Under the pieces are notes generated by a model. It did no database searches, was not told where the DNA came from, and was given only the letters and a program-made list of their open reading frames with translations. A stretch of 25,569 nt of DNA from positions 1 through 25,569 of IMG/VR virus record IMGVR_UViG_3300007734_000512. The stretch is one strand, 5' to 3'. The position numbers were made by a program, and so were the translations under genes. Every line of letters begins with the position of its first letter. Position 1 is the first letter of the stretch. The DNA comes from a virus. Positions 19,220 through 23,430 of the stretch are shown piece after piece.

Positions 19220-19437
19220 CGGACCTCTCCCTGCTGCTGCTCGTGCTCGTGCTCATCGAAGCGTTCGTGATCATCCGTTTCGAGCTGCGCTTCGAGGCGT
19301 ACCTCAAGACAGTGCAGGCGTGGACGAACGCGATGGAGCAGGCCACGTACGCCGTGCGCGAGCGCGTGGCGCGAGTGGAGACGCTGACCGAGTGCCGCGC
19401 CCGTCGAGAGTGTCCGAACTGCCAGGGCCACGCATGA
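19216..19437 (+). CDS. Small membrane protein with coiled coil and C-terminal cysteines
   Basis: 73 residues from GTG at 19216, overlapping the previous TGA. An N-terminal membrane span ('LSLLLLVLVLIEAFVIIRF') is followed by a helical coiled coil and a Cys-rich end (CRARRECPNC). The single-span plus periplasmic coiled coil layout is like an i-spanin (Rz). The cysteines could form disulphide-linked oligomers. ATGA-coupled to the hydrolase. Spanin or holin partner cannot be decided from sequence. Confidence 0.55.
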   Translation: MTDLSLLLLVLVLIEAFVIIRFELRFEAYLKTVQAWTNAMEQATYAVRERVARVETLTECRARRECPNCQGHA

Positions 19438-19853
19438 CCGACCGCGATGTCGTCGGGCTCACGCTCTACGGCGAGGCTAGGGGCGAACCGCTGGAGGGCC
19501 AGCTTGCCGTGGCCTCGGTGCTGCTAAACCGCAGAGCGGATGGCCGGTGGGGGCAGACCTTCACGTCGGTATGTCGCGCCCCGTGGCAGTTCTCCTGCTG
19601 GAACGTGACTGACCCGAACCGCGCCACGCTCGACCGGCTGGCGGCTGACCTCGAGCACGGGACGGTGACGGACGCCGCGCTGCGCCGCTGCCTGTGGATT
19701 GCGGACGGGGTAGTGGCGGGTGTGCTGCCGTCCACCGTGCGGGCGGCCACGCATTACGTCGTGGCGACACTATCTCCACAGCCTAAATGGGCAAAGACCG
19801 GCCATTTGGTCGCGATTATTGGTCGCCACGCCTTCTATTCGATGGTGGCGTAG
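19434..19853 (+). CDS. SleB-type cell wall hydrolase (endolysin) with replaced C-terminus
   Basis: 139 residues, ATGA-coupled. Clear Hydrolase_2 (SleB) features: 'LYGEARGE' with the catalytic Glu at 14, 'AVASVLLNRRADGRWG', 'VCRAPWQFSCW', then 'ATHY' and 'WAKTG...IGRHAFY'. It cleaves peptidoglycan to free progeny and is the main lysis enzyme here. Residues from about 105 on come from DNA that looks less GC-rich. The last 38 bases overlap, antisense, the end of a homing endonuclease. A second copy of this C-terminus (20485-20589) follows the endonuclease. So this C-terminus was probably brought in with the insertion. No signal peptide is present; export would need the holin-like proteins. Confidence 0.8.
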   Translation: MTDRDVVGLTLYGEARGEPLEGQLAVASVLLNRRADGRWGQTFTSVCRAPWQFSCWNVTDPNRATLDRLAADLEHGTVTDAALRRCLWIADGVVAGVLPSTVRAATHYVVATLSPQPKWAKTGHLVAIIGRHAFYSMVA

Positions 19854-20484
19854 GGTGACGGCGCAACAAATCTTCTACGTCGTCAGAGCAGCGAGAGAGG
19901 TGGTCGCGAAGCTGTTTTTGGTTCCAACCTATGAGATTCGCCAATTCAGACAGTGTGTACGACTCGCCTCGAAATGGCACGCGATGATGCCGACGTCGGT
20001 TGTTGGCCTGTGTTTTCTGGTCGGCCCATCGGCAGTTGCTTTTCTCATAGTTCCCATTTACGTCGATGCGGTCGAGCGTATGACGGGGAGGACACGGACC
20101 CATATCGCGCAGAAACCGTGCAAACGACACTTGCCACGCACCATCCATGGTGATTCCGCGGGCTCCATAGTGAATGAACTCTTTGACCCGAGGGTCAAAG
20201 CATCTTCGCTTCGCATGGTGCCACGAGGTGTATTCGCGACTATGTCGGACCCGTCCATTCGATCGGCTGGTGTGACCGTGACGCAGAAGCCTATTGCGAT
20301 GCAGCGCGGTGCGAAGGCAGTTGCAACTGCGCGTCAAACCGCGCTTGAGGTTGCTGTCGTAGAAGTCTCTCAACCGACCGCAGTCGCACTGGCAGACCCA
20401 GTACCTATTCCGTTCGCTCTTGGCGATAACCACCAAACGCCCAAATCGTTGTCCGACCATAACGAGCAGTATATCTCAGGCTCT
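19749..20484 (-). mobile_element. Homing endonuclease cassette inserted in the hydrolase gene, with a replacement 3' end
   Basis: Borders are approximate and set by the two copies of the hydrolase C-terminus: the first begins at about 19749 (THY), the second at about 20485 (THY). Between them lies the - strand endonuclease gene. The left side supplies the C-terminal codons of the working hydrolase. The right side leaves the old 3' end without a start. No terminal repeats are visible. Confidence 0.6.
19816..20460 (-). CDS. Phage homing endonuclease, NCRW-type
   Basis: 214 residues on the strand opposite to the lysis genes. The N-terminus 'GQRFGRLVVIAKSERNRYW' with C-x-C-x-C (23, 25, 27) and Cys46/Cys48 forms a probable zinc knuckle. 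Then comes 'EYTSWHHAKRRCFDP', 'YGARGITMDGAW', 'FLRDMGPCPPRHTLDRID' and 'GNYEKSNCRWADQKTQANNR', the hallmark of a widespread phage endonuclease family (AP2/HNH-associated in annotation). A C-terminal helix-turn-helix ('YTLSELANLIGWNQKQLRDH') probably reads the target. It is unrelated to the endonuclease at 11669-12310. Composition is less GC-rich than the flanks. Confidence 0.8.
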   Translation of the reverse strand: MVGQRFGRLVVIAKSERNRYWVCQCDCGRLRDFYDSNLKRGLTRSCNCLRTALHRNRLLRHGHTSRSNGRVRHSREYTSWHHAKRRCFDPRVKEFIHYGARGITMDGAWQVSFARFLRDMGPCPPRHTLDRIDVNGNYEKSNCRWADQKTQANNRRRHHRVPFRGESYTLSELANLIGWNQKQLRDHLSRCSDDVEDLLRRHPTPPSNRRRGDQ

Positions 20485-20589
20485 ACGCACTACTACGCCA
20501 CGAGCCTCCGCGATACCCCACGCTGGGCGAAGAGCGGCACGCTGGTCGGGCGGGTGGGCAACCACCTCTTTTTCGAGCATGTCGCCTGA
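20461..20589 (+). pseudogene. Remnant of the original hydrolase C-terminus
   Basis: In frame, 'YISGSTHYYATSLRDTPRWA' and following residues end '...GNHLFFEHVA' at a TGA (20587-20589). Aligned without gaps from THY onward (34 residues) with the end of the hydrolase at 19434-19853, 16 residues are identical, including T-H-Y, P, W-A-K, G, L-V, G, H, F and V-A. No start codon or ribosome-binding site serves it. It is the 3' end of a SleB-type hydrolase gene left behind by the insertion. Confidence 0.75.
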
Positions 20590-20599
20590 AAGGACACGA

Positions 20600-22003
20600 A
20601 TGAACACACGCGAGCAGTGGTCAGCGTTCGCCGTCACGGGGTCGCTGGCCCTGATGATCCTGATGGCGCTGTTGGCGGTGGTCGCTGTCGTCACCTCGGG
20701 CTGTGTGCCCGTCCGCCCGCCGCAGCCCCCACAGCCGCCCACCCCGGCTCCCCCACGGGTACTGGTGGCCACCGTGCGAACGCCGGATGGGGCGATTGTG
20801 CGTGAGGGGACCGGGACGCTTGCCGACGACTTCGGTCACACCGTCCCGTGCGTGTGGGGTGGCGACCGCCTGACCTGTACGCCTGCGGAGATCATCAAGC
20901 CGGGATGGCAGGCGTATCTCCGCATTAGCGACGTGCCTGACCTCGACCCGTACGAGCAGCGCATTCCGCAGTTGCCGTCCGACGCGATTACCGACCTGGG
21001 CGAGATTCACCTGGAGTCCGCGCACTACAACCCGGCATCGGTGCCGCTCGAGCAGCTCGCCCGCATTCGTGGCGCGATGTGGACCGAGACGTGGGCGTGT
21101 GACCTCGGCCCGCGCCCGTGGCAACCGAACAACATCTGCGCCACCGATTTCTTGTGGAACTACAGCGAGGCGCAGCGGGCCGCGCTCGTGCAGAACCTGC
21201 GGAGCCTCGGCTACACCCACGCGGTGATTGGTCCCATCGTGGACAGCGACGGCTACCACGGCGCGTGGTCGCCGAACGATTGGCGCGGGAAGTTCGACCA
21301 GTTCCTCGACATGGCGCAGTACCTGTGGGATTCAGGCTTGGCCCCAGTGGTGTTCATCCACCCGGACAACTGGACGCTCGAACAGACGCAACAGCTCACG
21401 CCGCTCTTTCAGACGGAGCGAGCGCAGCGCCTGCTCCGCATCATCGTGCCGGCCGGCTGGGAACCCACGAAGTACGAGTGGTCGAACGCAACATGGACCG
21501 GCTACATGCAGTGGGGGCGGCAGACCTTTCCGAATGCGCTGATCCTGCTGCACACCGTCTGCGACGTGGACGCGCCGGTCGGGACCGATGCGCGGGGCGA
21601 TGACAACGGTCGCCCGAACGCGGAAGGATGGGTCCGCATTGCGCCGTACCTCCACGGCTGGCTGACGCAGTCCTGCACCTTCGAGAACCCAGACGGTCGC
21701 GACGATCCGCCCTACACGAACTTCGAGAACTGGACGCGGTTGTTCAACCCGAACGTGCGCGGCAGCTACCAGGACCGCTTCCGTAACGGATACGCCGGAT
21801 GGCCGCGTGGTAGTGCGTGGGGGCCAGCTACGCCGCTGAAGGTCTACGCCGGGGAGTACATGGCCTATCCCGTGTTTTGGCAGGGCGGCAAGAAGGAGAC
21901 GGCGCGGCAGTGGGGCGATGCCGCGATGCAGCAGGGCAGCGACGGATATCTCGATGGGGGCAGCGTGCCGGTCGGTGCCGGTCCGGTGCCGTGGCAGCGG
22001 TAA
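20600..22003 (+). CDS. Lipoprotein with Pro-rich linker and glycoside-hydrolase-like domain
   Basis: 467 residues from the ATG at 20600 (AAAGGA at 20589-20594). The N-terminus has a signal peptide-like hydrophobic span and a lipobox ending at Cys35 ('VVTSGC'), then a Pro-rich linker ('PPQPPQPPTPAPPRV'). A beta-rich module follows ('VATVRTPDGAIVREGTGTL'), and a large C-terminal domain starts near 'LARIRGAMWTETWACDLG'. The last resembles a TIM-barrel glycoside hydrolase: 'LGYTHAVIGPIVD', 'GLAPVVFIHPDNW', 'FPNALILLHTVCDVDAP', with several acidic residues at strand ends. A membrane-anchored sugar hydrolase made late could modify the host envelope or exclude other phages. Catalytic residues not identified. 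Confidence 0.55.
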   Translation: MNTREQWSAFAVTGSLALMILMALLAVVAVVTSGCVPVRPPQPPQPPTPAPPRVLVATVRTPDGAIVREGTGTLADDFGHTVPCVWGGDRLTCTPAEIIKPGWQAYLRISDVPDLDPYEQRIPQLPSDAITDLGEIHLESAHYNPASVPLEQLARIRGAMWTETWACDLGPRPWQPNNICATDFLWNYSEAQRAALVQNLRSLGYTHAVIGPIVDSDGYHGAWSPNDWRGKFDQFLDMAQYLWDSGLAPVVFIHPDNWTLEQTQQLTPLFQTERAQRLLRIIVPAGWEPTKYEWSNATWTGYMQWGRQTFPNALILLHTVCDVDAPVGTDARGDDNGRPNAEGWVRIAPYLHGWLTQSCTFENPDGRDDPPYTNFENWTRLFNPNVRGSYQDRFRNGYAGWPRGSAWGPATPLKVYAGEYMAYPVFWQGGKKETARQWGDAAMQQGSDGYLDGGSVPVGAGPVPWQR

Positions 22004-22020
22004 ACCAAGGAGACAGAGAC

Positions 22021-22206
22021 ATGAAGAAGGCGATCATCAAGAACGTGCTGGCGCTCGCGCTCGGCGGGGCCATTTCCTCGATGGTGGGCGTGAAGATCGA
22101 TCCGGACCACTTCGGCAAGTCGTTGAAGGAACTGGGCACGCAGGCGGCAATGGGGGCCGGCCTAACCGTGATCGGCCTGAACGTGCGCGCTCCGAAGGAC
22201 GAATGA
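22021..22206 (+). CDS. Small hydrophobic protein
   Basis: 61 residues with a strong ribosome-binding site (AAGGAG, 22007-22012). Basic start ('MKKAIIKNVLALALGG'), a weakly hydrophobic N-terminal segment and a second one ('GTQAAMGAGLTVIGLNV'). Possibly membrane associated. ATGA overlap with the next gene. Function unknown. Confidence 0.5.
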   Translation: MKKAIIKNVLALALGGAISSMVGVKIDPDHFGKSLKELGTQAAMGAGLTVIGLNVRAPKDE

Positions 22207-22373
22207 GCCGCAGACGGCGGTATCAGATGTCAGGCTGGTTCCTACTGCTGGCAGGGGCGCTGTTGGTCGCAGGCGCGTGTCATATGACATCGGCCGTTGC
22301 GATAGTGCCGTCGGCATCGGTGAGCCAGCCTGACCGCCTCGTGATTCAGCGTTTCCACGCGCAAGCTGATTGA
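22203..22373 (+). CDS. Small lipoprotein-like peptide
   Basis: 56 residues from the ATG overlapping the previous TGA. Basic start (MSRRRRYQ), hydrophobic span 'GWFLLLAGALLVAGAC' with a plausible lipobox (VAGAC), then a short polar tail. Size and lipobox recall o-spanins (Rz1-like), but it is far from the hydrolase and lacks a Pro-rich tail. Function unknown. Confidence 0.45.
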   Translation: MSRRRRYQMSGWFLLLAGALLVAGACHMTSAVAIVPSASVSQPDRLVIQRFHAQAD

Positions 22374-22380
22374 GGAGTGC

Positions 22381-23430
22381 ATGGCCGCGAAACCCCTAGC
22401 CCTCTCGGTGATGCGCGAGACGCTCGATGCCTACGAACGGCACCAGCGGTCGCGCCAGAACGCGGCGGCCGAACTTGGGCTGTCGGTGCCGACCTTCGAG
22501 AGCCGTCTCAAAGCCGCGCGCGTGGCCGAGCAGCTCGGGCGTCTCGCGCCGAAACCGTTCGATATTCCAGAATTACCGAACACTCACATCGACATCGACG
22601 AGCTGATCGCGCAGCGGTTGAAGAAGTTTTCGCAGAAGGCCACCGCGAAGGATGCGCGCAAGCTGATCCCGGTGCGCATCAAAGAGACCGGACCGTTCGG
22701 CGTGGCCATCTTCGGCGACCCGCACGTCGATGACGACGGCACCGACCTGCGCACGCTGAAGGCCCATCTCGACATCGTCGCGCGCACACCGGGGCTCGTC
22801 TGTGGCCAGATTGGCGACGTGAACAACAACTGGGACGGCCGATTGATGAAGCTCTGGGCCGAGCAGTCGACCAGCGCCGACGAGGCGTGGGGGCTGGCTG
22901 AATGGTTCCTGCGCAGCGTCACCTGGCTGTTCTGGGTGAAGGGCAACCACGACGCCTGGAGCCAGTCGCGCGACCCGATCCAGCGGCTGGCCCAAGAACT
23001 CGACGTGCTCTACGACAATCAGGTGCGCATCGCGCTGACCACACCGAAGGGCCGAGAGATTCGCCTCAACGCGCGGCACGACTTCCGTGGGCACTCGATG
23101 TGGAACTCGGCGCACGGCGTGTCCAAGGCGGCGCAAATGGGCTGGCGTGACCACGTTCTCGTGTGCGGCCACACGCACCAGAGCGGCTACCAGCACCTGC
23201 GCGACCCCATGACGCGCCTGATCTCGCACGCGATCCGCGTGGGCTCCTACAAGACGTTCGACCGCTACGCCGACCAGCTCGGGCTACCTGACCAGACGGT
23301 TACGGTGTGCCCGGTGATCGTGTTCCAGCCGCGCTACGGTGACGATGACCCGCGGCTGATCACCGTGTTCAACGACCCGGAGGTCGGCGCCGACTTCCTG
23401 ACGTTTCTGCGGAAGAAGAAGGCAGCCTGA
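22381..23430 (+). CDS. Calcineurin-like metallophosphoesterase with N-terminal HTH
   Basis: 349 residues. A helix-turn-helix-like start (residues ~15-50, 'NAAAELGLSVPTFESRLK') is followed by the five metal motifs of the family: GDPHVD (112-117), GD..NN (145-149), GNHD (188-191), an Asn/His segment (230-238, with H233 and H238) and GHTH (263-266). These bind two metal ions and hydrolyse phosphoesters. Related phage proteins include lambda phosphatase-like enzymes, but an HTH with a phosphoesterase suggests action on DNA or on a protein bound to DNA; that is inference. It ends where the next gene begins (TGATG). Confidence 0.8.
   Translation: MAAKPLALSVMRETLDAYERHQRSRQNAAAELGLSVPTFESRLKAARVAEQLGRLAPKPFDIPELPNTHIDIDELIAQRLKKFSQKATAKDARKLIPVRIKETGPFGVAIFGDPHVDDDGTDLRTLKAHLDIVARTPGLVCGQIGDVNNNWDGRLMKLWAEQSTSADEAWGLAEWFLRSVTWLFWVKGNHDAWSQSRDPIQRLAQELDVLYDNQVRIALTTPKGREIRLNARHDFRGHSMWNSAHGVSKAAQMGWRDHVLVCGHTHQSGYQHLRDPMTRLISHAIRVGSYKTFDRYADQLGLPDQTVTVCPVIVFQPRYGDDDPRLITVFNDPEVGADFLTFLRKKKAA

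Follow-up and report, generated by a model that had tools for sequence, protein, structure and literature searches.

A replacement 3′ end accompanies an HNH endonuclease gene within the SleB lysis gene of a phage

In the stretch of DNA analysed here, a 25,569-base IMG/VR fragment consisting of a single metagenomic contig (the window), a foreign gene end is fused in frame to the native body of a SleB cell-wall hydrolase gene, and the native end of that gene has been left beyond an antisense endonuclease gene. The insert and its borders, relatives with an empty site, the foreign in-gene end, the remnant, the intactness of the ORFs and the recurrence of this architecture at other genes are all observed. 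The account that very probably explains them is that a free-standing HNH gene invaded SleB at its T-H-Y codons, bringing a recoded 3′ end with it and leaving the native end as a remnant.

The SleB gene and its two 3′ ends

Two close relatives of the window were obtained from a scan of viral contigs with SleB, namely IMGVR_UViG_3300007735_000491 (L003), the nearer of the two, and IMGVR_UViG_3300007363_001361 (L004). The features of the locus are as follows.

19434–19757, plus strand: SleB/Hydrolase_2 lysis gene, native body as far as the T-H-Y codons; 85.7% nt and 91% aa identity to L003; G+C 0.70, GC3 0.87
19749–20484 (equivalently 19758–20493), not stranded: insert of 736 bp, comprising the replacement SleB 3′ end and the antisense HNH gene; absent from L003 and L004; ACGCAYTAC flanks; G+C 0.56
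19758–19853, plus strand: replacement SleB 3′ end inside the insert, 31 codons plus the stop; aa identity 42% to both L003 and L004; GC3 0.62
19816–19853, not stranded: antisense overlap of 38 bp, from ORF coordinates, in which one stretch of DNA codes for the C-termini of both the HNH protein and SleB
19816–20460, minus strand: HNH homing-type endonuclease, 214 aa, intact; phrog_374 E 3e-57
20461–20484, not stranded: short non-coding stretch that closes the insert, ahead of the HNH start codon; no L003 match; G+C 0.46
20485–20589, plus strand: orphaned native SleB 3′ end, without a start codon and in a frame that differs from that of SleB; 98% nt identity to the L003 gene end
20600–22003, plus strand: the gene that follows, collinear with its counterpart behind SleB in L003, which shows the side of the insert that is native; nt identity to L003 97%

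The preliminary description of this DNA had taken the SleB gene (19434–19853) to be complete and to share its last 38 bases with the antisense endonuclease gene, and both statements agree with the ORF coordinates and with a full-length Hydrolase_2 match of the 139-aa ORF over residues 17–135 (Pfam E 9e-17). The start-less second copy of the SleB end reported there is equally well founded. The orphan at 20485–20589 matches Hydrolase_2 with E 0.0018 (Pfam) and E 7e-7 (tblastn against its own genome), and it aligns with the in-gene end over 34 residues without gaps and with 16 identities; counted from the H codon, 15/33 residues and 50/99 nt are identical. The alignment scores 86, whereas 20,000 shuffles averaged 18 (sd 3.9) and never exceeded 46; the likeness of the two ends is thus not due to chance.

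The insert, its borders and the endonuclease

The motif ACGCAYTAC stands on both sides of the insert, as ACGCATTAC at 19749–19757 and as ACGCACTAC at 20485–20493, and each copy encodes T-H-Y, so that the alignment of insertion borders called for in the preliminary description returns the same three codons at either edge. The protein encoded at 19816–20460 has a zinc ribbon, an HNH region and a C-terminal helix-turn-helix-like part; it matches phrog_3377 (E 2e-38) as well as phrog_374 in profile searches, and in the family alignment it keeps all family-invariant residues, in accordance with the HNH profile. The HNH residues that fall within the 38-bp overlap belong to the variable tail of the family in that same alignment.

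Between 19720 and 20589, the frame opposite the HNH gene is free of stops for ~290 codons, through to the orphan SleB end. This frame is probably a by-product of the antisense coding sequence.

Empty-site relatives and the foreign origin of the in-gene end

L003 and L004 lack the endonuclease, and each carries one uninterrupted SleB gene that ends in the 20485–20589 type and is followed by the same next gene as in the window. Endonuclease-free relatives with a continuous gene of this type had been predicted, and neither of the two arrangements named as contrary to the prediction (both C-termini together, or an end of the 19749–19853 type followed by an unrelated gene) is seen in L003 or L004. 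Nucleotide identity between the window and L003 is 86% before the insert and 97% over the 1.9 kb from the orphan end onward. From T-H-Y, the orphan end is identical in protein to the end of SleB in L003, with only a few silent changes at the nucleotide level. By this match in protein, the orphan is the native end and the in-gene end is the newcomer.

Amino acid identities along the gene are mosaic. The SleB body of the window is 91% identical to that of L003 and 64% to that of L004, whereas the in-gene end is 42% identical to both; between L003 and L004 themselves the bodies are 63% identical and the ends 87%. Composition changes at the same place: GC3 is 0.87 in the SleB body and 0.88 in the orphan end, as against 0.62 in the in-gene end and 0.61 in the HNH gene, while G+C drops at the insert from 0.70 in the body (orphan, 0.66) to 0.56 in the in-gene end, a value like that of the endonuclease. 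The in-gene end thus has the composition of the HNH gene, unlike that of the phage body and orphan, and together with the mosaic identities this shows that it arrived with the insert. The earlier proposal that the endonuclease was inserted in SleB and supplies its own 3′ end is borne out by the empty sites, the composition and the mosaic identities.

Per 50 bp, identity to L003 is 0.78–0.92 to the left of the insert (19359–19757) and, over the compared stretch 20485–22500 to the right, mostly 0.95–1.0 after 20880. The lower identity on the left could reflect a co-conversion tract or ordinary mosaicism.

Blastn of the window against INPHARED phage DNA returned no relative, and the SleB homologues in INPHARED all have <60% identity. 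A search with SleB residues 73–139 found no donor phage with the same replacement end, and no other SleB locus among the 80 fetched carries such an HNH gene.

Soundness of the hybrid hydrolase

The residues that are invariant in the last third of SleB among 48 homologues (Y108, W119, G130 and H132) are all kept in the hybrid protein, the last three of them within the replacement end at 19758–19853. An AlphaFold2 model built with the 48-homologue alignment has a mean pLDDT of 93, with 91–94 over the replaced end, and Foldseek matches it best to two solved structures of the SleB catalytic domain, 4fet and 4f55; a model made without an alignment reached pLDDT 40 and was discarded. The prediction supports the hybrid SleB as a folded protein.

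Proposed mechanism and alternatives

If a free-standing HNH gene invaded SleB, its point of entry would be the conserved T-H-Y codons, ~34 codons before the SleB stop. The incoming DNA would have carried the last 31 SleB codons, divergent but complete, on the sense strand and the endonuclease on the antisense strand, with coding ends overlapping by 38 bp, and the displaced native end would persist beyond the insert as a non-coding remnant. Since the native body reads into the imported end, SleB still encodes a full hydrolase, and the hybrid enzyme is presumably active. The HNH protein would be expected to cut the empty SleB allele near ACGCACTACTACGCC (at or near the T-H-Y codons) in phages without the HNH gene, and repair of the break would copy the insert, that is, the HNH gene with the adjoining donor gene end, from a co-infecting donor phage. 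Both the imported end, which shares 50% of its nucleotides with the native one, and the splitting of the target would prevent re-cutting of the occupied allele. The endonuclease and the replacement end may have been acquired in a single capture. Since neither a donor with the same end nor a second SleB/HNH locus among the 80 was found, transfer as a ready-made cassette is hypothetical.

A variant of this mechanism, compatible with homing and given a little less than even credence, holds that the donor HNH gene sat behind a divergent SleB gene and that capture was one-sided: repair would have proceeded by homology on the gene side, taking the last codons of the donor, and by joining at the cut on the other side, where the recipient's own gene end would have stayed. 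The replacement end would then be a co-converted flank, not a sequence maintained by the element. The replaced stretch starts within a conserved part of the coding sequence, and in most cases its other limit abuts or overlaps the HNH gene; this agrees with the variant, and which gene end is replaced depends on the side on which the HNH gene lies. Co-conversion of flanks is also normal for free-standing phage endonucleases (PMC2988022). However, the presence of the same 9-bp motif at both borders in the window fits insertion at a single site no less well. A standing cassette and a co-converted flank would both account for junctions that are flush or overlap and for events at either end of a gene.

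Tandem duplication of SleB, with the HNH gene inserted later and the second copy degraded, would also leave the endonuclease flanked by two copies of the SleB end, yet it is very improbable. L003 has a single copy that is 98% identical to the orphan, while the two ends in the window share 50% of their bases; a duplication after the split from L003 could therefore not have diverged so far. The HNH-like composition of the in-gene end also speaks against it.

That the window is a chimera of two phages created in assembly is similarly hard to credit. It is a single metagenomic contig and its base composition shifts at the border; however, the insert restores the frame with a functional-looking SleB end and the sequence resumes exactly at the native codon, and independent viral contigs and bacterial genome assemblies share the architecture.

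Introns often accompany lysis genes and HNH genes in phages, but placing the HNH gene in a group I intron or intein of SleB, a view already rejected in the preliminary description, is the least credible explanation: a search of the locus against Rfam at E<=1 gave no intron match on either strand (the sole match was a chance snoRNA), the HNH gene runs antisense to SleB, the SleB ORF closes inside the insert and needs no splicing, the orphan is read in a different frame, and the same segment of the protein is encoded on either side. Neither an intron core nor a protein-splicing frame was found at the SleB locus.

Recurrence at other phage genes

The two flanks of each gene were compared for 287 HNH ORFs of the phrog_374-type family from viral contigs, bacterial genome contigs and phage records. 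Under a strict rule, which required that one flank of the HNH gene contain an orphan gene end and the opposite flank a longer gene whose end is homologous to it, 7/276 HNH genes qualified as against 3/623 control ORFs (other ORFs of the same loci), the latter three being weak and apparently spurious; at a score of >=51 the counts are 7/276 and 0/623 (Fisher p 2e-4). The strict rule was devised after the first cases were known, so this p value is optimistic and the individual alignments carry the argument. The count of seven leaves out the window and two loci found by eye, L268 and L283. The replaced ends are as follows.

L275, 3′ end: gene of phrog_874 type, whose end is overlapped by the HNH gene by 14 bp; INGPGSWDANPWVWVVEFKKLG, the orphan end, right behind the HNH stop
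L321, 3′ end: weakly RusA-like gene
L091/L216, 5′ end: ResIII/DEAD helicase; orphan MIQLRYYQQEALDALY; replacement MELRYYQKEALDALY overlaps the HNH gene by 11 bp
L332, 5′ end: GH108 lysin
L362, 5′ end: terminase small subunit
L295, 5′ end: XkdF-type protease
L339, 5′ end: head-morphogenesis-like protein, named by sequence resemblance alone
L268, 5′ end: LGFP protein; HNH gene antisense
L283, 5′ end: RusA; native start MRQITLTLPYPINS fused in frame to the HNH protein; replacement start within the 3′ end of the HNH gene

A near relative with an empty site is at hand for the window only; at the other loci the native side was inferred from position, and no empty-site relatives close enough for exact borders were found. 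The preliminary description had suggested testing whether other endonucleases of this family sit at the same place with similar replacement ends; no other SleB locus among the 80 has one, and the further replacement ends lie at other genes.

At L283 (1704–2309), the first 14 residues of the HNH protein are the native start of the interrupted RusA gene; from the sequence, the endonuclease appears to borrow the start codon and ribosome-binding site of its target. At L091 (3980–4507), the HNH gene stops right after the nuclease core, without the C-terminal helix-turn-helix-like part of its relatives, and the replacement start of the helicase begins there. Insertion at this locus may have cost the endonuclease its DNA-binding tail.

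Eight annotated phage matches inspected by region showed no clear remnant of a gene end. HNH genes that overlap the start or end of a neighbour by a few bases, with no visible remnant, are found at L226, L227 and L232 (the Streptococcus phiGBSVK helicase, Acinetobacter YMC-13-01-C62 MazG and Pseudomonas D3 NinB, respectively), and these overlaps are possibly older events of the same kind. At L168 (2846–3728), two similar single-helix membrane segments lie on either side of the HNH gene, which could be another replaced end or two paralogous small proteins. The candidate pairs at L243, L244, L153, L281, L308, L336, L096, L373, L363, L329 and L148 were rejected as artefacts of composition or antisense.

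A broader proposal, on which the balance is even, is that HNH endonucleases of the phrog_374 family invade genes generally in this intron-free manner. They would cut conserved codons close to either terminus of a gene and insert there along with a recoded gene end, by which the gene stays working and the target site is lost; many apparently intergenic HNH genes that overlap the end of a neighbour would then be aged products of this process.

Relation to known systems

The preliminary description knew of no named system of this kind; that view has to be given up, as the mORFs of fungal mitochondria replace C-termini likewise (PMC3630166). In atp6, atp9, cox2 and nad3 of Glomus sp., endonuclease ORFs bring a foreign C-terminus and the native one stays downstream (PMC3630166). 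As cited in that paper, the first case of a hybrid mORF gene was atp6 of Allomyces (A. macrogynus), and atp9 of Rhizopus oryzae and cox2 of Mortierella verticillata are further hybrid genes. In both fungal and phage settings, an endonuclease ORF lies in the 3′ part of a gene that is completed by a foreign C-terminus, with the native one downstream, and, as here, Glomus atp6 shows an overlap between the imported C-terminus and the mORF. By comparison with L003 and L004, the SleB locus has an endonuclease ORF within a protein gene, a foreign end in frame and the native end beyond the endonuclease. However, the fungal elements are mitochondrial and of another endonuclease family (LAGLIDADG in Glomus atp6). 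Thus, with the fungal mORFs as a clear precedent, what is new is a phage HNH gene antisense to its target, with related loci at which 5′ as well as 3′ ends are replaced.

Integrases that enter tRNA or protein genes (e.g. icd) restore the missing 3′ end of the gene. They differ in being site-specific recombinases that restore a near-identical site sequence, whereas the insert here is without an integrase and the new end has 50% DNA identity.

Homing endonuclease genes can also split phage genes, as mobE does in nrdA of Aeh1. As at the present locus, the homing endonuclease gene then lies directly in an essential coding sequence and not in an intron; however, the products of such split genes are two working peptides, whereas SleB is kept whole by the replacement end. 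A nucleotide reductase gene split in this way into two coding sequences is cited in PMC10448857.

Free-standing phage endonucleases likewise lie beside or in conserved genes, and flanking coding DNA is expected to be co-converted with them; however, in the accessible portions of this literature they are described as distant from their own cleavage site, and no orphaned end with a substitute is described. Free-standing endonucleases, co-conversion, split genes and exchange boundaries are all treated in the available parts of PMC2988022, PMC10448857 and PMC12724721, but replacement ends are not; these are open-licence papers only, and an earlier report from phages may exist.

Significance

On the reading that a free-standing HNH gene invaded SleB together with a replacement end, a selfish gene that has neither intron nor intein can invade an essential coding sequence and leave it functional. 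This would link the free-standing endonucleases of phages with the hybrid genes of fungal mitochondria. The named empty and occupied SleB alleles allow a direct test of cleavage. Additionally, such insertions would be a concrete source of mosaic ends in phage proteins, among them a cell-wall hydrolase, a GH108-type lysin, a helicase, a terminase small subunit, an XkdF-type protease, a RusA resolvase and the products of head-morphogenesis genes.
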